Assembly: GCA_003116975.1 (NCBI GenBank)
Contig: BGKB01000026.1
Location: 434,001 to 498,000 of the forward strand
Direction of reading: 5' to 3'
DNA: 64,000 nt
DNA from: Aurantiochytrium sp. KH105
Taxonomy: Eukaryota > Sar > Bigyra > Thraustochytrida > Thraustochytriidae
Under the pieces are notes generated by a model. That model did not search any database. It saw only the letters and a program-made list of their open reading frames with translations, and was not told where the DNA came from. A program made the position numbers and the translations under genes. This document shows, piece by piece, positions 33,019 to 61,141 of this stretch. Numbering within the stretch: position 1 is the stretch's first letter; every line of letters begins with the position of its first letter.

Positions 33019-36000
33019 CTACACATTCTTGATGCGCGCAATGAGTTCTTCGTAAAAGGCCTTGGCCAAGTACAGACGACGCTGAAAAGGCATGGACTCC
33101 TTCTCCTTGAAAAGATGCTTGGCCGACGCCGGAGCAGCATCAATGTAATCGGAGAAATTGGCGAACCCCGGACGATTTGAATCACTCTCGTGCACAACCA
33201 AAATAGGTTTCCCCTCTTCTAGCGCCGTTTCGAGTTCCATGCGAACGGCGCCCTCGAACACCGTCTTGGAAAGGAAGAGCACATAGCACTTGGACTCGCG
33301 GATACCTCGCTTCATTGCATCCTCTGCGAGATTGCCCGCGGTCTCCTGGTCAATCCAGACATGAAGTCCACGCTTGCGAAGCTTCTCCGCCATGAGGTTG
33401 CAGGCGTCCCCTGCATCAAACTGGCGATGACTCAGGAAGACATGGTACTCGAGCCCAGCAGCAAGCGGAATACTCTCCTTTTCCACAGAACCCGTGTCCA
33501 CCTCATCTTCCGTCAATGAGCCGTCCTCAAAAAAGGGAGCAAACTCTTGAACTTTGGCATTTCTCGTTCCCACAGACATGACCAGGCGTTTCCCGGATTC
33601 GCGCGCCTCGACCATGTCGTTATACCTGACCAGCACGGAGTCGTCTGAAGGTGACTGCAACAGGAGCTTCCAGGGTAAGTCTCTAAACACGGCATCGCGC
33701 GCCCCACGAAAGATACTCACTAGCGTCTTTAGTGTAGTTGCCGGTTTGTGCGCGTCTTGTGCCATGCGAACCCATATTTTGTCGCCGTCCTCCTTGAGCG
33801 CAAATGCCGAGAGGCCGAAGCGGACAATCGCTCGATCTCCGGCAAGCTGAGGTGCGCGCTTGCCCTTGTTCACATCTCCGCTGTACTGCGCACAAAGCGA
33901 GAGCATTCGCGCGAAGACACCGTCCGGGAGAAAGAATTCGGAAAAGTCCAACACGCAGGTGAGCCCGCTGTCCATGTCGGTAATCTCTGCGTCAAGACGA
34001 GAGTCTATCGACTTCTTGAGCAGACTGCTCACGAGGTAAAGTGTCTCGTTTTGACAGTTTCTCGCCAGCGACTTTTCGGGAAAGTTCCAGTCTGACATCA
34101 GCATATTGTCGTGCATAAATTCCCGCAGGTAGTCGACTTCTTCGTCATTCCACAGAAACCTCAGCAGACTGATCGTGGCGATCCCGCGTTTGCGCATTAC
34201 GGCAAAGTCCTTTCTGAGCCCAGCGTTCTGAAGTTCTTGGCCGTACCGAACCTGGCTGACATGGATCTCATCCGCAATCACGCGCGAAAGCTTGTCCAGG
34301 AGCCATTGCGGATTTAATATGACCTTGTCATGCAAGGTGTCGGTTGCGCGGAGATGGACGAGCATGCCGAGTTCGTGGAAAAAGCTCAAGAGTTCATCGG
34401 TCTGATCACCGGCTTGGTACCTGGTCGCGAGTTCTTGCACTGTATCAAAAGGCACATGATCGCGGCCGAGCTTCAGCAGGTCGTCCAACACCTTGAGCCA
34501 CCTCAACGAGATCTTTCGCGAGATGGCCTCGAGCGACGATGCGCTCACTTCGACAGCAGTTCTCAATTCTGAGGCATGGCCTGGCTCACGACTCATGTTG
34601 TCGATGGGAAAGAAACTCAGCCTTGCCGTCGAATTCAGAACGATGTTTTCATTCTCGTCAACAGACAAGTTGTCGACGAGAATCTTCTCCGCATCATGAA
34701 CGCTATCAGACGCCTGGTCATAGTGTGTGCCCACGAGAATAATGGGTGCAGTCGGCGCATGCAGCTTGACCGAGTTGAGCCAAAAGGAAAGGTACTCCAC
34801 GGCTTTCTCTTGCTTGGTGAGGAGTTCTTGCATGTCAAAGACGAGCATGAAGATGCCGCCCTCGCGCGTGAGGAAAATGTGGTGCAGCGCGTAAAAGACC
34901 TCCTGACCCGCATAGTCCCAGATCGTAAAGTAGATCTTCTGGCCCGACTGTGTCTTGCCGGCCATGTTCCTGATCTCCTCAATGTCGAAGCGCCGCGCCA
35001 CCTCGGCCTCAGGCACCAAATCCACCGGCACCTCTGCAACAAAAGGTTGCGTCGCAGCAGAAGAACGTTGGTGGACGGCACTTGAAATGCCACGGGACAC
35101 GGGGCTGGGCAGCGATTGTCGCTTCTTGCTCGCCGTTTGCTCCTGCACGGCCATGCGCAGCGCCGCCACGCGATACGCCTGGCGTTCAAATCCGCTGTCA
35201 AGATTCTTGATCTCCTCCCAGGACTCTGCATCGGTGCGCTTGAGCTCGACGCCCACCGTTGAGAGGTGCTCCGCCACGGGCGCCATGCCCAGCAGCGAGT
35301 GCACCGTGGACGTCTTGCCGGCGGCGCCCTGGCCGATGACCATGAGCTTGCAGCGGCCCAGTTCTGCGGGGTCTCCGTTCGCCAGCGCCGCCTTGAGCGC
35401 CTCCTCCGCCGCCACAGAAGCCGCGGCCGCCGCAGCGGCGCCGAGCACCTCCTCGATGGGCCGCGCGGCTTCCGTGCCGTCCAGCACACGCGTCGAGGCG
35501 CCCGTCTCCGCGTCCCAGATGCTCACGCTGCAGTCGTAAGATCCGCTTACGATCTCCGACCCCAAGAGAGAGACCGCCCGCACGACGCTCGAGTGTCCTT
35601 GCAAGACGTGCATCACGTCTCCGTTGCGCGCATCCCAGACTCTGATCGTGTTGTCCCAGGACGCGCTCACGACGCAGTCTCCCTCGAGCGCGACAGAGCG
35701 CACCCATTTGGTGTGTCCTTCGAGGATGCGGACGAGCTGGAAGGAAGGCACGGCGTAGACCCTCACCTTGTAGTCGTCGGACCCGCTCACCATGCGCTGC
35801 GCGTCGATCGCGACCGCGTAGACCTCGCCTGTCGCCTCCGTGAGGACGTGGCGTGGGTCGCCACTGGCCCGGTCGAAGACGCGCACGGTATTGTCCTCCA
35901 ACCCGGCCACGAGCTGGTTCTCGTGCACGGCAACGCTCCAGACCCACGCCCCGGCGTCGATCCTCAAGGTCTCTCGGCCGCTGATCGTGTCCCAGGCGCG

Positions 36001-36324
36001 GACGGTCTTGTCCCACGACACGGAGATGATCTCGTTGCCGTCGAAGAGGACGCCCATGACAGCGTGGCTGTGGCCCTGGAGGGCGTGCAGGACGGAGGCG
36101 GAGGCCATGTCAATCAGGAAGAGGCCGCCTGCGCTAGTCCCCATGGCGGCCAGCTTGCCCTGCACGGCCACTGTGTAGGCCTCCATGTTGTCGGGCGTCT
36201 CCATCTCCAGGACGAGGCCGCCGTCCCTCTTGCTCCACGCGCGCAAGCGGCAGTCGCCGCAGGCGGCCAGCGCGAGGTCGGCGGACTGCGTGACGCCGTA
36301 CACGACGCGTTGGATGCGGCCCAT
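33019..36324 (-). CDS. WD40-ROC-COR-TIR protein, 1101 aa
   Basis: The frame is open upstream, but the first ATG is at 36324 (MGRIQRVVYGVTQSADLAL). Seven WD40 blades cover about 1-295, for example GHTKWVRSVALEGDCVVSAS and WDNTIRVWDARNGDV. A ROC GTPase domain follows (about 320-540): P-loop VIGQGAAGKTS, switch II IWDYAGQEVFYALHHIF, and VGTHYD as the base-specificity motif. A COR domain is read at about 560-840 (LSFFHELGMLVHLR, VILNPQWLLDKLSRVI). The C-terminal TIR domain is at about 955-1090 (YHVFLSHRQFDAGDACNLM, VWIDQETAGNLAEDAMKRGI). The segment AVRMELETALEEGKPILVV aligns Glu1030 with the catalytic Glu of SARM1-type NADases. No kinase domain is present. A nucleotide-gated scaffold with TIR output (NADase or signalling) is likely; the stimulus is unknown. 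Confidence 0.9.
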   Translation of the reverse strand: MGRIQRVVYGVTQSADLALAACGDCRLRAWSKRDGGLVLEMETPDNMEAYTVAVQGKLAAMGTSAGGLFLIDMASASVLHALQGHSHAVMGVLFDGNEIISVSWDKTVRAWDTISGRETLRIDAGAWVWSVAVHENQLVAGLEDNTVRVFDRASGDPRHVLTEATGEVYAVAIDAQRMVSGSDDYKVRVYAVPSFQLVRILEGHTKWVRSVALEGDCVVSASWDNTIRVWDARNGDVMHVLQGHSSVVRAVSLLGSEIVSGSYDCSVSIWDAETGASTRVLDGTEAARPIEEVLGAAAAAAASVAAEEALKAALANGDPAELGRCKLMVIGQGAAGKTSTVHSLLGMAPVAEHLSTVGVELKRTDAESWEEIKNLDSGFERQAYRVAALRMAVQEQTASKKRQSLPSPVSRGISSAVHQRSSAATQPFVAEVPVDLVPEAEVARRFDIEEIRNMAGKTQSGQKIYFTIWDYAGQEVFYALHHIFLTREGGIFMLVFDMQELLTKQEKAVEYLSFWLNSVKLHAPTAPIILVGTHYDQASDSVHDAEKILVDNLSVDENENIVLNSTARLSFFPIDNMSREPGHASELRTAVEVSASSLEAISRKISLRWLKVLDDLLKLGRDHVPFDTVQELATRYQAGDQTDELLSFFHELGMLVHLRATDTLHDKVILNPQWLLDKLSRVIADEIHVSQVRYGQELQNAGLRKDFAVMRKRGIATISLLRFLWNDEEVDYLREFMHDNMLMSDWNFPEKSLARNCQNETLYLVSSLLKKSIDSRLDAEITDMDSGLTCVLDFSEFFLPDGVFARMLSLCAQYSGDVNKGKRAPQLAGDRAIVRFGLSAFALKEDGDKIWVRMAQDAHKPATTLKTLVSIFRGARDAVFRDLPWKLLLQSPSDDSVLVRYNDMVEARESGKRLVMSVGTRNAKVQEFAPFFEDGSLTEDEVDTGSVEKESIPLAAGLEYHVFLSHRQFDAGDACNLMAEKLRKRGLHVWIDQETAGNLAEDAMKRGIRESKCYVLFLSKTVFEGAVRMELETALEEGKPILVVHESDSNRPGFANFSDYIDAAPASAKHLFKEKESMPFQRRLYLAKAFYEELIARIKNV

Positions 36325-37066
36325 GGCGGCCCGGGCGGGCGGGCAAGCGCCGCGAAGAAGCGCCGCGAGCGAGCGGCTGCGGCGGGGAGAAGGGACGAGA
36401 AAGCAGAGAGAGGGAGGCTCGGGCGAGGGAAGGGAAGGGGAAGAAGGCCGAGGCGGGAGAGAGAGTCTGGGCTGGCTGCTGGTGCGACGCGGCCTTGGCG
36501 CATTCTCCGCGGGGAGCGCGCGCGGACGGGGCGTGTCGCGGCGGCGCCCGCGCGGAGAAAGAGAGGGTCGAGCGAGGGGGTTGCTGGCTTGCGCCCTTGC
36601 GCGCCTGCCTGCCAGCCGCGCGGTCGCGCCGCGGCGCGAGGGTGAAGAAGGTGCGTTAGGTCTTTGGGCGAAGATTTCTAGCACAATCTCCTGTCCTGGG
36701 TACTAGCAAGTATTGGCATGTATACCGCGAGGATCGTTTGTTTGTTTGACGGTAGTGGATGTCAGAATTTGTTCGCGCGACAACGACACGACGGGCACTG
36801 CATACGAGAGCGCTGTGAGGTTTGCGATGAATGTGCTGTGAAGCCAAAGGCGATAGTAGGCCCTAGTTCTGGAGATTGCCTGCGATGCGCGAGCGGAAAG
36901 GTGTCGATGAGGCAAATGATTGCGTGCGGAGCCATGTCAATTGGCGGATCGCTCCAGCTGGCAGCTGACATAATATACGAACCTACGCGAGTACTACTTT
37001 CAGACTCTTGCAGACCGTGATTGGATACATGGCGAAAGAAATGAAAGCAAAATTGTATGTTGCTAA
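36325..37066. other. Intergenic space upstream of the WD40-ROC-COR-TIR gene
   Basis: The first 330 bases are GC-rich and free of ATG in the downstream frame; the rest is the 3' flank of the HAD hydrolase. A plus ORF of 100 codons at 36718 begins with ATG but has no recognisable domain, so it is not called. Confidence 0.45.
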
Positions 37067-40723: not shown

Positions 40724-41389
40724 TCGACTTCTTCTCCTTCTTCTTCTTTCCCCCCGGTTTTGGGGATGCTGCAAGTTGAACTTTCACCTAAACATTTTCC
40801 TGACGTCAATCTTACTTTGAATGTTCGATCATCTCTCAGAAGATCGAGACTCATCTTGAAAGTAGGCCTAGCCAATGCTTGGCAAGCGAATCAAGAGGAC
40901 TCAATCGTGATCATATCTCTACGCAGAGGGTCTTCATGTTCGTCAAGCTGACAAAGAGGAAATGAATGATCTTGCCATGACTTGGAATTTCTCTTTTCAG
41001 ATGATCAGAGTCTTGATGTGTACGTCAAGCCGCAGTCGAAAGCGGTGCAGCGCATGGCAACGAAAGTCCAAAGCGTTCAAGTTGCAATTGTTAGCGAGCC
41101 GAGATTGCGTCGCAGCCAAGCCCAGCCAGATGACAGACGAGTAAGCACACATCAGGTAGGCCTGTACTTTAGCCCGTCCGTCACGCGTGCAAACTGCGAA
41201 GAGCAGCAGAGCCGCAAACACCGAGACGGCGACGCAGCGGCGCGTGGAGGTCGCGAGAGACGCCGCGGCGCGGCGCGAGGCGAGGCGAGGCGAGGCGAGG
41301 CGCAGCGCAGCGCAGCGTAAGGCAGCGCGGCAAGGCGGCGCAGGCGGGGCTGCTTCTTGAAGCGCTTCGCGGCGGAGCACGTCGCCACC
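40724..41389. other. Intergenic space between NASP and the tryptophan gene
   Basis: It holds the NASP 3' flank and the leader of the IGPS-PRAI gene. AAGTAGGCCTAGCC near 40860 and AGGTAGGCCTGTA near 41150 repeat a motif seen elsewhere. A pentanucleotide array ends 75 bases before the ATG. No gene is supported. Confidence 0.45.
41276..41315. repeat. Pentanucleotide array (CGAGG)n then (CGCAG)n, 8 units
   Basis: Five CGAGG units and three CGCAG units run in register immediately upstream of the IGPS-PRAI gene (ATG at 41390). Confidence 0.95.
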
Positions 41390-43429
41390 ATGGCGTCCGA
41401 GGGAGCCTCGGAGAAGAAAAAGTCAAAGCTCGAGATGATCGTGGAGCAGCGCAAGCTGGACGTCGCTGATGCGAGCAAGACCGTGGAGGCGAAGCAGCTA
41501 AAGGAGCTGATCAAGGTCCGCGAAATGGAACTCGGCGACCCTTTGGACTTGTTCGAGGCCATCAAAGAGCATGGCGAGCGCATCGACGAGATGTTCGTTG
41601 CCGCCGAGTTCAAGCGCGCATCTCCGAGTAAGGGCGACATTGCCACCGACCTCGACCCGGCCGAGCAAGCAGCAAAGTATGCCAAGGCCGGCGCTGGTCT
41701 CGTGTCCGTGCTTACAGAACCAAAGTGGTTTAAGGGAACGCTGGACGATATGCTTGCCGTGCGCAGGGCCGTCGACGAGATCACTCAGCTCGGCGGCTTT
41801 CGCACGCTCGTGCTGCGCAAAGATTTTATCGTCGACGAGTACCAGCTGCTCGAAGCACGCGCATACGGCGCCGACACCGTTCTTCTCATGCTGAGCGTGC
41901 TCAATGAAGACCAGCTGACGGCGCTGCTGAAGCGCTCGCGTGAGCTCAAGATGGAGCCTCTTGTCGAAGTTGTCAACGAGGAGGAGACAGAGATTGCTCT
42001 GCGCGCCGGCGCCAAGGTTCTTGGTGTGAACAACCGCAACCTGCACACCTTTAAAGTTGATATGGAGACGACCCCGCGCATTGCACGCATTGTGCAGGAA
42101 GCCGGAGAGGCCGCGTCGACCCGTGTCCTGGCCCTCAGCGGAATCAAGTCCCGCGAGGATGTGCGCAAGTACGAGGAGCACGGTGGGATTAGCGGTCTGC
42201 TTGTGGGCGAGACGCTCATGCGCGCCCCTAATCCAACCGAGATGATTTCTAGTCTCGTGCGCGAGACGACTGCCCAGGAGCAAGCGCCTCTTGTGAAGAT
42301 TTGCGGCATGAATGACCCGGACGCAGCGCTTACTGCCGCAAAGGCAGGTGCTGACATGATTGGGCTCATTTTCGTGAAAAAGTCATCGCGGTACGTGGAT
42401 ATGGAGACTGCAAAGAAGATTGTGAGCGTGATTCGCGACTATCGGGAGCGCGAGGGCCGTATCGACCTTATGTCAGTTTTTGCGGGCTCGGCCTCAGGAG
42501 ATGCGCGCCCCTGCGGCAAGGAATGCGGGGGCGGCAAGGGCAAATGCTGCGGCAACGGCCAGACCAAGGTTCGAAAGTCCCGACGGAGAAAGGGCAGTCA
42601 CAAGAACAAGAGCTCCTCCAAGGACAGCGAGGAAAGCTCGAAACCTGCAAACGGTGCAAACGAGATCGAATCCTCTGTAATCGAAGCCCGGGCCAATGAT
42701 CATAAATCTGCTGATCAAAAGCAGGGAGGAAGTGCGGACGTGAATGGTCTTGATGAGGACGAGGTCGAAGTCGAAGATGACGAGGATGAAGACGATGTCG
42801 ATGAGGATGAGGCCGAGCGCAGGAACGCCGGCAAGCGCGTGCGCGTTGAAAAGTCGTGGTTCCAGCTCTGGGGCGACATCATCAGCCAGGCATGTCGCGG
42901 TCAAGCGCGGCCTCTGCTCGTGGGGGTTTTTATGAACCAGCCGCTCGACGAGGTGAACAAGCTCGCGCTTGAGGCAGGCGTGGACCTGATTCAGCTGCAC
43001 AGCTCGGAGGCTCCCGAGTACGAGGCACAGTGCGCCTTGCCGGTGATTCGTGTTGTCCACGTCGATGCGCAGGCTACTGCCTCGGAGGAGATTCTGCCCA
43101 TTGACGCTGCCGCTCTTGAGAAAGGACCCGCCAGCGCGCTCTTGCTCGACACGAGCATCAAGGGCGGCGCTACGGGAGGCACAGGCAAGACGTTTGACTG
43201 GAATATTGCGAAAAAGCTTGCAGAACGCGACAGCCTGCCCCTCGTCATGGCGGGAGGTCTGACCCCAGAAAATGTTGCCGAAGCTGTGGCGGTTGCCAAG
43301 CCTTGGTGCGTTGATGTGGCCAGTGGCGTTGAGGCTAGCGCCGGCGTCAAGGACCACGACAAGATCCGCGCTTTCGTCAAGGCCGCAAAGGACACGAGCG
43401 CTGCCGCGCCCGCCACTTCATCATCATAA
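41390..43429 (+). CDS. Indole-3-glycerol-phosphate synthase / phosphoribosylanthranilate isomerase fusion, 679 aa
   Basis: The ATG at 41390 sits in a GCCACCATGG context. IGPS covers about 10-290. Its barrel residues are clear: AAEFKRASPSKG (Glu and Lys of strand 1), LVLRKDFIVDEYQLLEARAY (Lys), LVEVVNEEETE (Glu), LGVNNRNLHTF (Asn) and LALSGIKSREDV (Ser). PRAI follows from about 300: VKICGMNDPDAALTAAKAGA with the catalytic Cys, LVGVFMNQPLDEV, LIQLHSSE, and CVDVASGVEASAGVKD with the catalytic Asp. Together they catalyse two consecutive steps of tryptophan synthesis. Between helix 2 and strand 3 of the PRAI barrel about 125 residues are inserted (about 363-490), first Cys/Gly/Lys-rich, then acidic. 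The order IGPS-PRAI without a GATase differs from fungal TrpC. Confidence 0.95.
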   Translation: MASEGASEKKKSKLEMIVEQRKLDVADASKTVEAKQLKELIKVREMELGDPLDLFEAIKEHGERIDEMFVAAEFKRASPSKGDIATDLDPAEQAAKYAKAGAGLVSVLTEPKWFKGTLDDMLAVRRAVDEITQLGGFRTLVLRKDFIVDEYQLLEARAYGADTVLLMLSVLNEDQLTALLKRSRELKMEPLVEVVNEEETEIALRAGAKVLGVNNRNLHTFKVDMETTPRIARIVQEAGEAASTRVLALSGIKSREDVRKYEEHGGISGLLVGETLMRAPNPTEMISSLVRETTAQEQAPLVKICGMNDPDAALTAAKAGADMIGLIFVKKSSRYVDMETAKKIVSVIRDYREREGRIDLMSVFAGSASGDARPCGKECGGGKGKCCGNGQTKVRKSRRRKGSHKNKSSSKDSEESSKPANGANEIESSVIEARANDHKSADQKQGGSADVNGLDEDEVEVEDDEDEDDVDEDEAERRNAGKRVRVEKSWFQLWGDIISQACRGQARPLLVGVFMNQPLDEVNKLALEAGVDLIQLHSSEAPEYEAQCALPVIRVVHVDAQATASEEILPIDAAALEKGPASALLLDTSIKGGATGGTGKTFDWNIAKKLAERDSLPLVMAGGLTPENVAEAVAVAKPWCVDVASGVEASAGVKDHDKIRAFVKAAKDTSAAAPATSSS

Positions 43430-51892: not shown

Positions 51893-52597
51893 TTAAAAGA
51901 AGGTCAAGTCTTGCGAGAACTCCTCGATAATGTCGTCGTCTTTGATGTCCTTGAGATCCGGTGTGCTCGAGTCAAGCGACGATAGATTGTTAAAGATCTC
52001 TCGCTCCGCCTGCCGATCGTTGTACGCCTTGAGTGCCTGTTTCTCCGTGCGAAACTGCCCCAGAGTCTCCATTGCACCCTCAGAGTTCACAAAGAACCAC
52101 GTCTTGCTGTGCTCGTCATAGTGCACTGGCGAGTCCTTGGATCGTTTGGGCGTCTTGCTCGCCTTGGCACCACCCCGTCGTTTGGTTCCACCGGGAGCCG
52201 CGCTTTGAGCCGATGAGCTCGAGCTGGCGCCCGTCCCTTGCGACTTTCCGTTCTGATCCGATCCCGCCTGCCCGGGCATTCCCCCCATGGGGTACCACTG
52301 TTGTTGTTGGACTTGGGCTTGTTGACCGCCGTGATATCCAACGCCCGCCATGCCTGGGTACTGCTGCATCATGGGCTGCTGGCCTTGCTGGGCTTGCTGC
52401 ATGTGCTGCGGCATCATCTGCGAACTTTGCGATTGCGGCATGTGCTGGGCTTGCTGCTGCGGCGGCATACCAAAGCTCGTGTATTCCGGGTGTTGGTGCT
52501 GCTGCTGATTGCCTTGGAGTTGAGACATCTGCGCTTGTTGCATGTGTTGCATGTGCTGTTGTGATTGTTGTTGCTGGTTGTGATGTTGTTGAGATGG

Positions 52598-52629
<32 letters not shown>

Positions 52630-52840
52630 GATGATGCTGCTGTTGTTGATGTTGCTGCTGTTGCTGCTGCGGGAGATACTGCTGGTGCTGGGAGTACTGC
52701 GATTGTTGTGGATGCTGATACTGCTGATGTTGTTGATGCGGTTGATATTGCTGCACCTGCTGCTGGCTTGGCACACGTTGCTGGCGCGCGTATGCCTGTG
52801 GTGATTCCGACTGCGCTACCTGCTGTTGCTTGCTCTCCTT

Positions 52841-52888
<48 letters not shown>

Positions 52889-52910
52889 TTGTTGTTGTTG
52901 CTTTTGTTGT

Positions 52911-52957
<47 letters not shown>

Positions 52958-52967
52958 TTGCTGTTGC

Positions 52968-53001
<34 letters not shown>

Positions 53002-53045
53002 GCTGCTGCTGCTGCTGCTGCATCATCATCATCATCATCATTTGC

Positions 53046-53077
<32 letters not shown>

Positions 53078-53824
53078 AGCGCCGCCTTGCGCATGTTGGG
53101 GCATCATAGGGTGCTGGCCTGCCATCATCTGGGCTTGCTGTTGCGAGTATTGGCGCTGTTGCTGCTGCTGAGCATGCCCAGGAGCTTGTCCACCCGGACC
53201 CATCATTCCATATCCAGGCCCGCCAGGATACCCTGCATTGGGATGTTGATAAAATCCAGGAAAGGCCTGGTGCTGAAACTGCGAAGGAACGCCTCCCTGG
53301 GCACCGTGCGGGAGCCCACCAGCATCCCCCATTCCACCTCGCGCATTGGGCTGAGATGTCACGGGAGCCGACGAAGAGGAAGTGGAAGAGGAAGAGGACG
53401 TTGTTGACGCTGAGCGCCGGTTCTTTGGCTGTTGAGCTTTGGTGCTCGGAGCCCGAGGTTTCCGCGCGGTCTCAGACTTGGCCCCCGCGCTTTTTGTTGC
53501 CGTATTCGCGCGTGCCCGTGCCTTGGGTGCCGCCTTCGACGAGCCCGAGGCGCTCGAGTTAGAGCTTCCATCACTGCTCGAGGCGGAGCTCCCTTGCTGT
53601 GCCATCCCTTGGGGCGGCATCATTTGCCAACCCTGAGGCCCGGAATATCCCATGGGCGGCATCATAGGCTGTCCGCCAGAAGATACTCCAGGCTGAGGAC
53701 CTCCGTTGCCCATCTGCATCGCTTGCTGCTGCTGCTTCTGCTGCTGCTGTTGCGTCATTGCGTACTGCGAGGCGCCGGGATAACCCTGTCCAGCTGCCTG
53801 TTGCTGAAGTTCAGCTTGCTGCTT

Positions 53825-53856
<32 letters not shown>

Positions 53857-56800
53857 TCTTCTGTTGCTTTTGTTTTGCCAACTGCTGCTTTAGCTGTTGC
53901 TTCTCTTCCTTCTCCTTTTGTTTTTGCTGTTGTTTCTCTTCCTTCTCCTTTTGCTTTTGCTGCTTCTGCAACTGTTGCTTTTGTTGCTTTTGCTGCTTCT
54001 GCAGCTGCTGCTTCTGCTGCTTTTGGAGTTGCTTTTGCTGCTTTTGCTGCTGCTGCTTCTGCTGCATTTGCTGCTGCTGCTGCATCATTTGCATTTGCTG
54101 CTGCTGTTGCGCCGACATTTGCGCATGCGGCGGAAACATCGCGTCAGCCTTGGGCTGACCCGGTTGCGGTGAATACATCGCCTGCTGCTGATCGCCATAC
54201 TGCTGCATGCTCATGTACTGTGGAGTTTGTGACGGTTGCAAGACGGGTGACACTTGTGACGAATCCGCCTGTCGATGGCGTGACGAGGATGCAGCTGGTC
54301 CCTCAGAGGAAACACCAGAGCCTTGAGCGGCGGCGGCGGCGGCGGCAGCAGCAGCAGCAGCCTGCGAGGCTGCAGCGGACGGCGCGTGCATCCCTGCCGC
54401 CGTTGCGCGATTTACCATGTGTGGCGGAACGGCTTGAGGAGGCCAGGCGCCCGGAGGCATGGGGCCTCCAGCCCAAAGCTGGGCCTGTGCCTGAGCCGCT
54501 TGTGCTTGCGCTTGGGCGGCTGCCTGCATTTGCATCTGGCTCGCATCGAAGGTACCATTGCGCGGATCTTGCATGGCACCAGGTCCCATCCCTGCCGCGT
54601 TAGGGGCAGGCATGGACGCAGCTGAAGCGGCGGTTGATTTCGCCTTCGCCTTCTTGTTTAGCGATGGATGCGGAACGCCGACGGGCACCGGTGCGACAGC
54701 ACTCTGCGCGCTGGCACGCTTCTTTGCAGGTCGCGGCGTCTTGCTGCTCGTACTCGGTTGGCGAACCCGCTTGCGCGGCACAACCTTCTTCTTGTCCGAG
54801 CGGAACTCCTTAGACGACAAGGTCAGCACCGGAGTCTTTCGCGTCTTGCCGCCGCGGCGCTTTGGCCCTTCTGTGAACTTCTTGAGCTCAGTCTTCTCGC
54901 GATCAAAGGACGAAGGAAGTAGGTGTCCGGGAGCGCAGTTCACGATAGCGGTATTCACCAGCCGACGGAACACCTTGGCCGTGCGTCGCAGCGGAGAGCC
55001 CTTGGGGTTATAGGTGAGGCAATTTTGGAACAAAAGCTCCACGTCCGCCAGCACCTGATGCACGCTGCGATAAAAGCCGCGCTTCAACAACGTCACAATC
55101 GTCGTCAGGTCCATGGGAGCGGCCACGAACGCCAGGTAGCCCGGCACATAGTTCGGGTCTACCGGCTCCCTGAAGGGCTGCGCTTCCTCGTTCCGAGTCG
55201 CAAGCTCGACAAAGGAGGCAGCGATGCGGTCCGCAAGACCCGATTCGAGGGGCATGCCCAGAGGGATCGCCCACGGATCGATTTGCGCGTTCTTGGGCTT
55301 AAGTTCCCACGGTGCAAATTGCCGGACCTCGCTTTGGCCACTAGGACCCGGCGCCATGGCCACGTGAATTCCGCGAAACGGTGAGTTGGGCCAGCTTTGG
55401 ACGTCGTCTGCACGAAAACCCTGCACAGTGCCAAGTCGACCAGTCCTGTCAACCACCGGCGTGCCCTGCGTAAAGGTGGAGGCCGTATACGCGTTGAATT
55501 CACCACGTGAGATGAAAATGGCCGGATCTGTTGCCTCTGGTTTGAAGTAAACCATGTCAAAGATGAACGGCTCCTCCTTCTTCCACTCCACCCACGTGTC
55601 CGTCCGCGGCAGGAATCCATTTGCTGACTTGGGAGGTGTCGAGATCACACGTAACTTGAGCTCCAAGGCAATCGCAGTAAAGTTCTGATGATAGTCGCTG
55701 ATGTAAATGGCGTCGTTGGCGATCATCGACTTTTTCGAGTATGGAAAGATTGGTTTTGACGCCAAAAGCTCGCACAGCACCAACGGCCAATGCGCCATGT
55801 CATACGGAGGGTTCGTATTCTCCCACGGGGCGTGAAGGGCCGCCACGTGGTTGTTCTGTGAAGAATACAGCGTCTTGCGCAGCTCCAGATAACGTTCTGC
55901 AACAAGCTTGTGTGCCTGCGCGCAGTAAATAAAGTGGTCTCCGTACTGTGGCACCCTCAATTGCGCATGTAACCACGTGCGGTCAAAGCGTGCGGAACGC
56001 TGCAGCCATTCGTTATCGAGCATCGCCACAAGATCGCTCCCCGCAGTTCGATACGCTGTCCCGGAGGACGCCATCCTCGAAGCAGACGAGACAGACGCAG
56101 GGCCAGATCCAGAAGCTTCCCATGCGCCATCATCGGTGCGGTAGCTCGAACTCGAGCTTGAACTCGCGGCACGCCGCACAGGAGAAATCGCTGGCGAAGT
56201 TGCCGCAGATGAGCTGCTGCTAGTGGTTGCGCGACCGCCTTGCGCTCCGCCTGTTTGTGCGTTTCCACCTCCTGCTGGTGTCGACGAGCTTCCGGCGCGA
56301 CCATTGTTCGCCGTGGCGTTGCTGCTTCGACTGTTGCTGTTGCTGCTGCTGCTGCTGCTGCTCGACGAAGCGCCTCTGTTACCAGCACCAGTACTGCTCG
56401 AGGCTGCTCCGCTGGCACGCGCAGCGCCTTGGGTACCGCTCGAACTACCGCTACTCGTCGCACCTGCACCTCGAGAAGCAGCTGCGCCACTAGCACCAGT
56501 ACTTGCGATAGCAGAGTTTCCATCCGCCCCCGAGGAACCATTTGTGTCAAGGAGGACATCGCGGACCTGGCGCAGTCGACCGGCTGCACGACGTGCAGCA
56601 CGGCGGATGCCTCGCCCCGGAGGCGTCGTTCCTGCGCCCGAATGGCTAATCGCAGAGGGACTCTCGGCACGCAACAAATGAAGTTCGCCTCGAGTGATTT
56701 GCAGATCGCGCGCAGCGCGACGCTCTTCTTCTGCATCATCATCGTCATCCCCAATCTCGTACGCTTCATCTTCCGGATCGCCGTCGTTGGTATCCATTGA

Positions 56801-59800
56801 TGCCTGACTGACAAGCGCAGGTGTACGTCCCGCAGCCCCACCTCCGGTGCGTTGCACCGGTTGTTGTTGGGGCTCGTCATCACGATATGTAATGACCCGC
56901 CGACGCACAGATCGGCGACCGCTCTCGAGAATATCGCGGTCCTGCTCTTCCAGAATCGCCAAAACTTCTTGCAAAGCCGATTGTTCTTTGAGCCGCAGGA
57001 CGCGCTCGAGGTTCGAAACGGCGCGAATCCGGCTTTCGGGACTCGAGGTGTCGGGCTGCTCTTCATATGGAACAAGTTGCGCATCGCAGAGGGGGAGACT
57101 AGGAATAAGGTGCGGGGCCATTTGCACCTCGGCATCGACCGCGTTGCCAAAACTATCGTAGACCAGCTCCTTTTTATCACGCGCAAAGAACTGCGCCGGG
57201 TACGTGCTACGATACTCTCGACCGTCACCGATTCCCAGAAAGTTGAGGCGACCCATGGAGTCAGTGCACACTACATCAGAACCTGTGCGCCCGTACGGCA
57301 AAAACTGTACGTCGAGAACATACGCGATTCCTGACGAGTGCAGCGCAAGATTTTCGCACACAAGAGAACCGTCAACAATGTCCCAGAGGACAACGAGGCC
57401 ATCCCACCCAGCACTCATCGCCAGACGAGGATTTGTAGGGTGCGTGACGAGGGTAAGGACCTGGCTCCGGTGCTTGCGCAAGACATGAACCAGTTCGCCA
57501 CGTCCGTGGGCATCCCACACGCGAAGCTCCTGAGCCCAGTAAGCGCGAATGTCTCGTTGGCTTGTGGGCACGACCGTTTGCGCAGTGACAATCCAGCGAT
57601 CATCGCATGACCACGCAACAGCGTCGAGCCCTGGCGTGCGCTTGGCGCGGCGATTCCGAGCAACGCTCGAAGACGCCGGGCTCCGGCTGCGACCATTCGA
57701 GGTCGTCCCATTGGACGCGTCGCTGTGTTGCCGCGCTGCAAGCCCGCGCCGACCCTCGCCGCCATTGCCACCGTCTGCATCCGCACCAGAGCCGCCTCCA
57801 CGGCCAGTCTCGTTTTGCGACACACTGACAAAGTTCCGCACGACATCTTCGTGAGGCTCCGTTTGCGTGCTCAGCGAGAAGGAGACGCGAGGCAGCGAGA
57901 AAAGAAAACCCGCATGACTGTCGAGCGAACTGAATTGCGTGGTGTGTTTCCACTCCCAAACGCGGCCTATGCCTTCCTTGACCGAAGTAGCAAGAAGGCG
58001 ATAGCCGTCTTTGGACCACGCCAAACTCGAAACGGTGGACATTTGCGAGTTCACCATGTTGACAAGACGGTTCGACCCGTTCCGATACGCGCAGTTGACC
58101 AGCGGCGAGGCGGCAATGAGAGCTGTCTGGCACTTGTCTAAAATGTCTGCACCCGGAGACTTTTGCCCGCACCACACGCGAATACTCCCGTCCTCGGCTC
58201 CCGTAGCGATAAAGCCACCCGCGGGATGAACAGCCACGCAGTTCACCTCGCTGGGGCAAGCATTGTTTCGGTTAACGTGGGGGAGGACCGTAGGCGTGCG
58301 CTGGTCCACCGTCGTGGGCTCGACACGCACAACGGCGGTATCGTAGATGGAGTCAGTATCCCAAATGCACAACGAGCCATCATTGCTGGCACTGTATAGC
58401 AGACCTGTGTGCACGTCGAAACGCACCGCTTCAATGCCCTTTTTGTGGCCTTTGAGAACGCAAAGCGCGCGACCCGAAGGCAACTCCCAGATGCGAATGG
58501 AGAGATCATCCGAAGTGGAGGCAAGTACAACGCCTCCATCAGCTCGACGTTTGATGGCAACGTCGCACACGTTGTGCTCGTGGCCTCGCAAAGTCTTGAG
58601 CAACTCGCCACTTCGCGCAGACCACACCTTGAGAAGCTTGTCGTCCGCGCCTGTGACCACGAACTCGCCTTCTGGATCGACGCCGATGCAATAGACAAAG
58701 GAGAAATGACCCTGTGTCTTTTTGAGAAATTTCATCTTGCTGTACAGCGCACCAGCGGGCATCTTGGGTTCATGGTGCTGGCCGGTGAATGCATTGCGCG
58801 TCGGTTTGCGCCCAAGCGCCACCTTTCGTCGTAGCTCAGCTGCCTTGGCCTCCAGTGCTTCGGCTTCTTCCCGCCTCTTTTCGATACGATGCGCAAAGTC
58901 GATGGCGCCACGATCGTCGCCATGACGTTGTGCTTTCATCTCGAGGCTCCGAACCTCACGCCGGCGCGTGCGAATAGCATCCCTTGTACCCACAAGCTCC
59001 TCAATCAGATTTCGCTGCTCGAGGGCTGCGGCCTCTCGCCTCGTTTCGATTGTGTCAATGGCGGTTTCTGCCATGTGCGTCATTGCAGAACTGAGGTTAC
59101 CAAAGTGCCAGGCTACGTCGGCTACCGTTCCTGGACGGCGTGACCCTGTCCACGACTCTACCTTTGGCAGCAGACCCATGCGCACCACGTCCTCACGAAG
59201 AGCAGCTGCGGCATGGGTACATCCAAGACGGTTTTCTAAATAGCTCGAAATGAAATGAATCATCCGTGCCTGGCTCATCTCCTCCTCCATGGCCTTGCGC
59301 CTTGAGAGAATAAGCGCACGTTCTTGCCGATCTTCCCAGGCACGGGTCGACGGGACATCGTCTCCGCCATCAGTATCCTTATCAATCGTGTCTAGCGCGT
59401 CTACCATTTCAATGTCATCGTTGTCATTGGCCTCACCGTCCCTCGGTGATGCCGTTGCTGATGCGGATGGTGCTGATAGCGCTGTTGGCGTTGGAACAGA
59501 TGGTGCTGTTGGCGTTGTTGATGTCGGTGCTGGCGCAGGTGCTGTTGGTTCAGATGGAGCTGCTGGTGTTGTTACAGGCGACGTTGCAGAGGAAGCCTCT
59601 GTTGGCGCTGCAGCTTCTGATGCGTCTGCTGCTGCTGCTAATGATGATGATGATCGTATTGACGCTGAAGATTGTAATGGATCTGAAGGAGTTTCTGGTG
59701 CAGTAGCAGCTGCTGCTGGTACCGTTGATGATAACGATGATGATGATGATGATGACGACGAAGAAGAAGATGATGATGGTGCCGCGGGTGTGGTATCTGA

Positions 59801-61141
59801 TGCGGCTGCGGATATTGGTGGTGCTTCTGCCGCTTGCTCTGCTGGTACTGAAGCTGACGACGACGACGAACTCGCTGCAGCAGTGTCATCTGGTACACTT
59901 TTAGTCAATGTCGTTGTGCGTGGTGAAGGTCCGGATTGAAGATCGTGAGAAGACGATGATGGTGGCACGCTCGACGCAGGCATTACAGCCGTCTCAGAGG
60001 AAGTGTGCTTGTCTTTTTCCGAGTCCTTTTCTGCCTTGTCGGGCTTGTTCATTTCTACATCTTGTGCATTTGCCTCTTTCGTTTCTGACACAGGAATAAT
60101 TGCAGATGATGCCGCTGTCTCATGTTTCGTTGGCGATGATGGTAACACCGAGTCTACTTGGCCTGGCTTGTGGTCTATTGACGGTTCTGCAGCAGCCAAA
60201 GATGACGACGAAGATGAGGATGATGTTGATGACAAGGTCGACGCAGGTCCTTCTGGTGCTTCTTTCATCTCTACGTCTTGCTCTGATTGGACCTTCTCTT
60301 CCACGACCACATTTGCCGGTGCTCCTTCGCTACCTGATTCAATCACCGAGGCAGGAACCTCCTCCTTGGAAAGCGATGCAGCGACCGTCGAAGGCTCAAC
60401 CTCCTTCGTCGTTGACCCAGACGGCTCTTTGTGTGCGTCAGCTGCGGGCTCAGAAAGAGATGCCTTGTCCTCATTAGACAAGTTTTCCTCAGCAGGTGCT
60501 TTGTTATCAGCAGATGATTTTTCCTCGGCAGGTGCCTTTTCCTCCGCAGAGGTTTTATTATCACTGTCCCCTGTCTGAGATGGCGGGTCACTCTCCTTGT
60601 GCGAAGCGTCACCTGTTGAAACCTCTTGTGTTTGACCCGATGCAGAAGGTTCGATAGCTCCAGGAGAATCAAGGAGCTCGCGCTCTTCGCGTGAGCCGTC
60701 GTGCCGGTCTCGTGAGACTTGGTGCTCGTCGCCGTCGTCGCGTGAGCCTTTGTGCTCGTCGCGTGAGCCTTCGGCGTCTGTAACATCGTTTGCGGTGAGC
60801 TCGAGTCCGCCCACGGACAAGGCCTTGCCGGAGTCGTCAAAGTCGACATTGATGTCAAAGTCCATCTCCATTCCGGGCGAGCCCGTAAAGGCAAAGTCGC
60901 CCCCGGACAGGACCGACATTTTGGACGGCGCAAGCGACGCGAGGGGACCCAGCGACATCGTATCGCCCTCCACGCGGTTGACGATGTCGTCCACAACGGC
61001 GCGCACGTCATCCACGCCGGGCTTGGCGGCGGCGACGTCGTCGTCGTCGTGGTTGTTGCCGCCGTCGAGCGCGAGGTGCGCGTCCCTCCCCGCGTCGTCG
61101 GCGTCCGCAGGCGCTGCGGCGCCGCGGGCGGTAGCGTCCAT
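51893..61141 (-). CDS. BRWD/PHIP-like chromatin reader: WD40, crypto-Tudor and bromodomain, polyQ tail, 3082 aa
   Basis: One uninterrupted frame starts at the ATG at 61141. Residues 1-590 are acidic, Ser/Thr/Ala-rich and disordered. A LisH-like helix pair lies at about 620-650 (ISSYLENRLGCTHAAAALRE). WD40 blades lie at about 810-1310 (TQGHFSFVYCIGVDPEGEFV, ASTSDDLSIRIWELPSGRAL). A polyserine linker precedes the next block at about 1730-1960, like the BRWD/PHIP Tudor-like region (PQYGDHFIYCAQAHKLVAER, RQFAPWELKPKNAQIDPWAI). A bromodomain follows at about 1970-2060 (YLAFVAAPMDLTTIVTLLKR, DVELLFQNCLTYNPKGSPLR). The remaining 1000 residues are Gln-rich with tracts at about 2344-2467 and 2660-2860. 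The extreme C-terminus (about 3004-3050) has a small ordered unit (MEGTLGQF-like, EKQALKAYNDRQAERE) that recalls AP2 domains. Expected role: binding acetylated or methylated histones in transcription control. Confidence 0.88.
52556..53160. repeat. Long CAG/CAA (polyglutamine) coding repeats, distal tract
   Basis: On the plus strand TTG/CTG-type triplets, read as CAA/CAG on the minus strand, dominate from about 52556 to 53160, with a short ATC run giving methionines near 53020. The tract encodes the C-terminal polyglutamine of the BRWD/PHIP-like protein. Confidence 0.9.
53720..54115. repeat. CAG/CAA and CAG/AAG (Gln/Lys) coding repeats, proximal tract
   Basis: Plus-strand CTG/TTG with CTT units encode long Gln runs interrupted by Lys in a regular KQQ/LQKQQ pattern, likely a charged single helix rather than a pure polyQ stretch. 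Confidence 0.88.

Follow-up and report, generated by a model that had tools for sequence, protein, structure and literature searches.

A large WD40-ROC-COR-TIR gene family with a hypervariable propeller face in Aurantiochytrium: probable intracellular recognition receptors

Introduction

What might be gained by placing a ROC-COR GTPase switch between a variable sensor and a TIR domain? We consider this question for a gene in a 64,000-nucleotide stretch of the genome of Aurantiochytrium sp. KH105 (contig BGKB01000026.1, positions 434,001 to 498,000; hereafter the window), which encodes a WD40-ROC-COR-TIR protein and belongs to a family of at least 42 genes. We propose that the genes probably encode recognition receptors that act inside the cell, with a WD40 sensor, a ROC-COR switch and a TIR output, and that the expanded family would constitute an immune-type or self/non-self repertoire.

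The systems that most resemble this locus are summarized here from the accessible part of each source. Bacterial ROC-COR proteins with leucine-rich-repeat (LRR) sensors carry at least 24 different C-terminal domains, including TIR, and have been called counter-invader systems (Kaur et al. 2021, PMC8195603). These prokaryotic AP-GTPase conflict systems share with the window protein a ROC-COR switch followed by an interchangeable C-terminal effector, but have an N-terminal LRR sensor and an NKxD G4 motif, whereas the window protein has WD40 repeats and THxD, as does LRRK2. Among eukaryotes, Chondrus crispus has a TPR-ROCO-TIR protein, and brown algae have expanded LRR-ROCO families that have been proposed to be immune receptors (PMC11378527). 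Expansion of ROCO genes and a eukaryotic ROCO-TIR fusion are thus shared features; however, the sensors there are LRR or TPR, the brown algal genes consist of 7-55 exons and were subject to exon shuffling, and TIR is not reported for them in the accessible part of that source. ROCO-TIR combinations have also been described in Aplysia (PMC9334734).

The sensor resembles that of another system, the HNWD/NWD family of Podospora anserina (het-d, het-e). There, codons 7, 9, 25 and 27 of the WD40 repeat are positively selected and flank the conserved codons 8 and 26, and the top of the propeller is taken as the interaction surface (PMC1805685). Both families have paired hypervariable WD40 codons with a ratio of nonsynonymous to synonymous substitutions (dN/dS) above 1 around conserved ones, concerted repeat evolution, an NTPase switch and several gene copies. 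They differ in that the Podospora proteins contain NACHT (and HET) domains and unit-exchanging repeat arrays of varying number, whereas the present family combines ROC-COR and TIR with an N-terminal propeller of seven blades. TEP1/NWD1-type DUF4062-NACHT-WD40 proteins also contain a TIR-like domain, an NTPase and, in several cases, WD40 repeats, but they have NACHT in place of ROC-COR and the reversed domain order, and a hypervariable family is not mentioned in the accessible part of the report (preprint PMC13174449). Both ROC-COR-TIR proteins and hypervariable WD40 faces have precedents. No example of the two combined in a single expanded family turned up in the literature searched, although most subscription journals lay outside that search and absence from print is not proved by it.

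Domain architecture and gene family

The gene occupies the minus strand as a single open frame that begins with the ATG at 36324 in GCCGCCATGG, whereas the plus strand of the same interval contains 13 stops. The initial annotation had read here, without naming the strand, one frame with seven WD40 blades, ROC, COR and C-terminal TIR domains. The Pfam search upheld the frame with its WD40, ROC and TIR domains, all above their own cut-offs, and the three GTPase motifs that had been named were found at residues 331 (GQGAAGKTS), 470 (DYAGQE) and 533 (THYD). The COR assignment stood in part: COR-A also exceeded its cut-off, though as a partial match (profile positions 3-85 of 143), but COR-B was matched neither by Pfam nor by a profile of the bacterial relatives, and hhalign alone returned it, weakly (E 0.019). 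When the blades were scored against a model built from this copy's own repeats, five were strong, one was weak and the second was not scored; all seven are visible in the conservation register across copies. The features are as follows.

33019..36324, minus strand: WD40-ROC-COR-TIR gene, 1101 residues, stop codon at 33021-33019; one of 42 genomic copies
35473..36324, minus strand: seven-bladed WD40 propeller, putative sensor, residues 1-284 (Pfam WD40 5.6e-27; own-repeat model; conservation register)
35530..36309, minus strand: span of the 35 face codons that are hypervariable (five per blade, at registers -1, 0, 2, 16 and 18; residues 6 to 265; entropy, dN/dS and pair comparison)
34645..35361, minus strand: ROC GTPase, residues 322-560 (Pfam Roc 2e-20; PDB Roco chains including LRRK2; motif residues kept in copies)
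34960..35208, minus strand: ROC insert between switch I and DxxG, about residues 373-455 (P-loop-DxxG distance against bacterial relatives)
34090..34539, minus strand: COR-A region, residues 596-745 (Pfam COR-A 3.2e-12; bacterial profile, domain E 9e-16)
33475..34089, minus strand: position expected of COR-B, residues 746-950, not detected as COR-B by Pfam or the bacterial profile
33022..33462, minus strand: TIR domain, residues 955-1101, C-terminal and downstream of COR (TIR_2 8.4e-14)
33235..33237, minus strand: codon of Glu1030, within AVRMELE, the candidate catalytic Glu of TIR NADases (hhalign column; kept in 28 of 28 copies)
33247..33249, minus strand: codon of Ala1026, an aromatic residue in comparison TIRs (hhalign, hand anchoring, 28 copies)
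36325..36690, minus strand: 5′ flank, in which family homology extends upstream of the ATG to a median of about 365 bp (flank comparison; this copy pairs with L093)

A search of the genome (76.03 Mb in 367 contigs) with the protein returned 43 matching pieces of 67-100% identity, which we read as 42 genes, two pieces lying in one open frame; the count is a lower bound, at least 42, with 42 of 606 candidates scored. Forty of the 42 copies have no internal stop. The COR-A profile matched 124 places on 90 contigs (116 above cut-off), and TIR_2 was scored for 150 of 258 candidates. For 86 of the 124 COR-A matches, a listed TIR_2 match lies within 3 kb downstream in a frame of equal size; 51 of the 124 are in frames of at least 1100 residues, and TIR is present in 47 of these 51. 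L120 and L121 are shorter members, ROC-COR-TIR without a WD40 match. L120 (113-2842) is one of several COR genes clustered on contig C138, with similar frame sizes on C69, and the A...EL motif that precedes the last helix-strand recurs in its TIR. NB-ARC, searched in six frames with introns ignored, gave two matches barely above cut-off among 42 candidates.

All family comparisons below are drawn from this one genome. Over the whole gene, 28 of the 42 copies were read, and the N-terminal kilobase alone was read for 12 more and for eight places from the COR-A list. Counts of dN/dS, pairs and Mantel correlations leave out L112 (one stop, N-terminus missing) and L097 (upstream run of N), and the register-entropy analysis leaves out L097; L118, a near-duplicate, was also dropped from the blade-face permutation, third-base and adenine analyses and from that of pairs with less than 3% backbone divergence. 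The set of 45 propellers is without L112, L137 and L143, whose WD40 regions are incomplete or weak; it retains L136, the first two blades of which are out of register.

The hypervariable propeller face

Seven blades are present in all 27 copies whose N-terminus is complete, and in every blade the entropy peaks at registers -1, 0, 2, 16 and 18, with means of 1.8-3.0 bits, against less than 0.9 bits at each of the other registers shown. Registers 1 and 23 are invariant in the 27 copies and near-invariant in the set of 45 propellers (0.21 and 0.09 bits); the former is Val in six blades and Ala in the seventh, the latter Trp, Phe or Tyr in six and Ile in the remaining one. When the blades were rotated independently 2000 times, no register pattern as extreme as that observed arose. 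By analogy with the published HNWD model, the variable sites would lie on one face of the propeller.

The 35 face codons have a pooled dN/dS of 2.83, against 0.57 in the remaining WD40 codons (325 pairs of 26 copies, Nei-Gojobori counting over non-independent, recombining pairs). On the same counting, ROC with its insert gives 0.36-0.40, COR 0.18, residues 746-950 0.19 and TIR 0.12, values that indicate purifying selection on the switch and TIR. Compared at 28 sites, the 45 propellers show 41 distinct faces, with a median difference of 23 of the 28 residues. With some 35 hypervariable residues on what would be a single face, the majority of copies probably differ in the ligand that they bind.

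The ROC-COR switch and its prokaryotic relatives

The G1, G3 and G4 motifs are present, and the 12 ROC motif residues that we checked are kept in 28 of 28 copies, except for one G336S. The ROC-COR part matches PDB chains of LRRK2, of a 'Leucine-rich-repeat protein' (4wnr) and of a 'Rab family protein' (3dpu and others), and we take the 4wnr and 3dpu chains to be prokaryotic Roco proteins. In the PDB alignment the G4 motif THYD resembles GTHLD of LRRK2, and the bacterial consensus is NKxD. The ROC domain further contains an insert of about 83 residues: 138 residues separate the P-loop from DxxG, against 47-75 in 79 bacterial relatives (79 of 80 loci; L045, with an unrecognisable P-loop, was left out). 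An unspliced intron was considered for this insert and rejected, as it has no stop and no GTRAG-type donor and is conserved in the copies.

The relatives come from a scan of bacterial and archaeal genomes, from which the best 80 of 514 confirmed loci were kept; one analysis drew on 58 of these 80. TIR_2 lies in the last 300 residues of eight of the best 80, a share that may be high because the ranking query contained TIR, and all eight have Glu at the hand-anchored catalytic place. The view that a C-terminal TIR is rare among ROCO proteins was therefore not borne out, ROC-COR-TIR proteins being also described in the accessible parts of PMC8195603 and PMC11378527. No match to the WD40 region of the window protein was found in the frames of the best 80 of 514 loci, some of which are partial. 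A plasmid search yielded 11 records at 20-30% identity, TIR alone finding one; none of eight plasmid ROC-COR proteins ends in TIR, the architecture having been checked for eight of the 10 COR-type matches. No viral relatives of the 780-residue part or of the TIR were found, and three viral loci gave an alignment to the ROC part.

Two plasmid loci are described here in their own right. In L007 (2616-5354), from a Photobacterium toruni plasmid, a COR-domain gene lies between tniB and tniQ/csy2 genes, a setting that suggests a CRISPR-associated Tn7-like element. In L002 (2570-5361), from an Acaryochloris plasmid, an LRR gene, a ROC-COR gene and a DUF4062 gene are consecutive; a preprint (PMC13174449, accessible part) describes DUF4062 as an NADase resembling TIR, so the effector of this system may reside in a separate gene.

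Exchange between copies

How might so many faces have arisen on such similar propellers? Sequence has been homogenised in the 5′ half of the gene. As far as residue 350, pairs of copies show a synonymous difference of 0.05-0.17, against about 0.6 in TIR, although the low propeller values are partly due to a G+C content at third codon positions (GC3) of about 0.9 in the propeller. The flanks are likewise unequal: among the 351 pairs of 27 copies, 5′ homology (median reach 365 bp) was found in 249 and 3′ homology, mostly from the stop codon onward, in 21. The histories of propeller and tail disagree. Distances between propellers correlate weakly with those between tails (residues 800-1100; r 0.16, 88 of 2000 permutations as high), and the nearest neighbour is the same for five of 26 copies, whereas COR and tail give r 0.47 (0 of 2000 permutations as high) and 13 of 26.

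Individual pairs illustrate both kinds of discord. The propeller backbones of L096 and L101 are 0.9% apart and their tails (residues 560-1100) 29% apart, yet 26 of the 35 face codons differ, and L101 and L104 differ at 18 of 35 face codons with tails only 1.2% apart. As a counter-example, the window copy (L092) and L093 differ at three of 35 face codons despite a tail difference of 16%. Of 300 pairs, 48 have backbones less than 3% diverged, and the median nucleotide difference in the face codons of these 48 is 43%. Among the 1678 face-codon comparisons in these pairs, 721 differ at two or three bases and 213 at all three. The third base is kept beyond the expectation from codon usage at eight of 28 sites; at two, the variation equals or exceeds that of nearly every simulation.

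Two candidate sources of face diversity found no support. Whole-blade shuffling was not supported as the main source: pairs of identical four-site faces exceeded the permutation maximum in only two of seven blades (blade 2, 12 against 11; blade 4, four against three). In the targets of diversity-generating retroelements, the variable positions are adenines. Adenine-directed mutagenesis of this kind was rejected, since of the 124 scaffold columns whose consensus is A, 97 are conserved, even if the other consensus bases are better conserved than A (0.91-0.96 against 0.78); a template repeat and a reverse transcriptase were not sought. No special mutator is needed to explain the data: gene conversion is enough when it is combined with strong diversifying selection acting on codon variants that the copies hold in common. 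We regard as improbable a more elaborate possibility, in which a dedicated process (targeted mutation or very short conversion tracts) would rewrite face codons while the backbone is copied between genes, and would produce an anticipatory repertoire in which a ROC-COR switch replaces the ATPase of NLR proteins and TIR is the effector; the kept third bases and the many face codons that differ at two or three bases leave some room for it.

Discussion

Several observations, on the family here and on its TIR domain below, weigh against a receptor repertoire. The dN/dS ratios rest on pairs that are not independent, and the GC3 of the propeller contributes to its low synonymous differences. Residues 321-720 also correlate poorly with the tail (r 0.23-0.38), so that exchange is not limited to the propeller. 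Four pairs among the 45 propellers have identical faces, and L116 and L118, with tails 2% apart, differ at one of 35 face codons; these pairs may be uncollapsed haplotypes. Some family loci probably are haplotypes of this kind, and COR clusters of equal frame size are paired on contigs C138/C69 and C12/C22. That the copy number as a whole is inflated in this way is nevertheless rather unlikely, given the distinct faces of most propellers and the many tail pairs that are 10-29% apart. Judging from the copies and their flanks, we give far less credence still to the idea that a mobile or selfish element generated the family, whose size would then have no meaning for reception: the copies are indeed dispersed single open frames with some 365 bp of 5′ flank in common, but purifying selection on the switch and TIR, the scarcity of stops, the restriction of 3′ homology to few pairs and the site-specific diversification all speak against it. 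A weightier alternative, though in our judgement the true explanation in only a minority of outcomes, is that the propellers bind non-immune partners, such as mating-type, prey or cell-adhesion molecules or many internal clients. The neighbours in the window are mixed (a kinase, DnaJ, tryptophan biosynthesis, PRPP synthetase, an LRR protein and many frames without a match), which is compatible with such a role; on the other side, TIR outputs of ROC-COR proteins and HNWD-like faces are both described, in the accessible parts of the sources cited above, in defence or allorecognition.

A closer rival accepts the same receptor family but regards the TIR as a non-enzymatic scaffold, a TIR-TIR adaptor, and not as an NADase; we rate its chance a little below one half, and NADase activity, which is possible, at about even. 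The initial annotation had aligned Glu1030 with the catalytic Glu of SARM1-type NADases, and whether this holds depends on the aligner. A search with the TIR alone retrieved AbTIR chains with an E value of 5e-4, whereas SARM1 scored no better than about E 1. With hhalign, Glu1030 falls on the Glu column of the WxxxE motif in a TIR profile led by Roq1, and Ala1026 on the Trp; however, HMMER local alignments stop short of Glu1030, near residues 1020-1024, and MAFFT leaves it out of register with the bacterial Glu column. Five of the 23 residues around it are Glu, so that a single Glu in the expected position says little by itself; the assignment is strengthened by the hhalign column and by the invariance of Glu1030 in the copies while the nearby Glu1032 and Glu1036 vary. 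Ser965 and Asp992, the counterparts of AbTir S140 and D167, are also invariant across the 28 copies.

The surroundings of Glu1030 favour the scaffold. Position -4 is Ala in 26 copies, Thr in one and Met in one, and no copy has an aromatic residue at -4 or -5, whereas all nine comparison TIRs anchored by hand at the catalytic Glu (Roq1 and eight bacterial ROC-COR-TIRs) have one. The loop before Glu1030 is shorter by one to two residues, with 11 steps from the strand-end Ser to Glu against 12-13 in the nine, and the residue hand-aligned with AbTir R151, which AbTir activity requires according to the accessible part of PMC11374754, is Asn in 28 of 28 copies. Against this, Phe1023, at -7 in all 28 copies, might stand in for the missing aromatic residue. 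Moreover, replacing the WxxxE Trp by Ala inhibited AbTir but left TcpC unaffected (PMC11374754), and in another AbTir study lowered activity and gave an additional product (PMC10937652); judging from the accessible parts of these reports, the Trp is not strictly required. The earlier proposal of a TIR enzyme in an immune-like switch thus gains from the large family, the hypervariable face, the purifying selection and the conserved Glu, and loses from the absent aromatic partner and the shorter loop. PADLOC returned for the window protein weak TIR matches alone, the best at 4.5e-7.

Returning to the receptor family that we favour, how might it work? The evolution of the face suggests that a ligand would bind there, and the kept GTP-binding motifs are consistent with binding being relayed, as in related families, to a GTP-dependent ROC-COR switch. 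By the same comparison, ligand-driven clustering would most likely bring TIR domains together, with either NAD+ consumption or scaffold-based signalling as the next step, and the outcome might be cell death, defence or a self/non-self response. Diversity would come from frequent sequence exchange among the copies, which is most marked in the 5′ half, comprising promoter region and propeller, together with strong diversifying selection on face codons. If this is correct, the hypervariable-propeller strategy of fungal allorecognition has also been built from an LRRK2/DAPK-type ROCO switch and a TIR output, and a large natural set of propellers differing mainly at about 35 codons would offer a direct handle on ROC-COR sensing and on the origin of receptor diversity in a lineage that apparently lies outside animals, plants and fungi.

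Neighbouring genes and other observations

A fall in GC3 along the gene was considered as a sign of recent fusion and rejected, because of eight other window genes five show milder declines, two a rise and one no change. Searches for tRNA genes and Rfam families gave no match. Elsewhere in the genome, 58 of the 150 listed TIR matches are not downstream of a listed COR match, and many of these lie in frames of 1100-2016 residues. L122 (315-2216) encodes a 633-residue protein with a C-terminal TIR and an N-terminal part that by eye looks like helical repeats and has no Pfam match, and in L123 (3-1664) a TIR lies beside an NPHP3_N (NACHT-like) domain. In the window itself, positions 41357-43429 are a single frame of 690 residues that joins a PRA isomerase domain and an indole-3-glycerol phosphate synthase domain, and positions 51893-61141 contain a 3082-residue frame with WD40 repeats and a bromodomain, with an AT skew of -0.49 at 52-54 kb.

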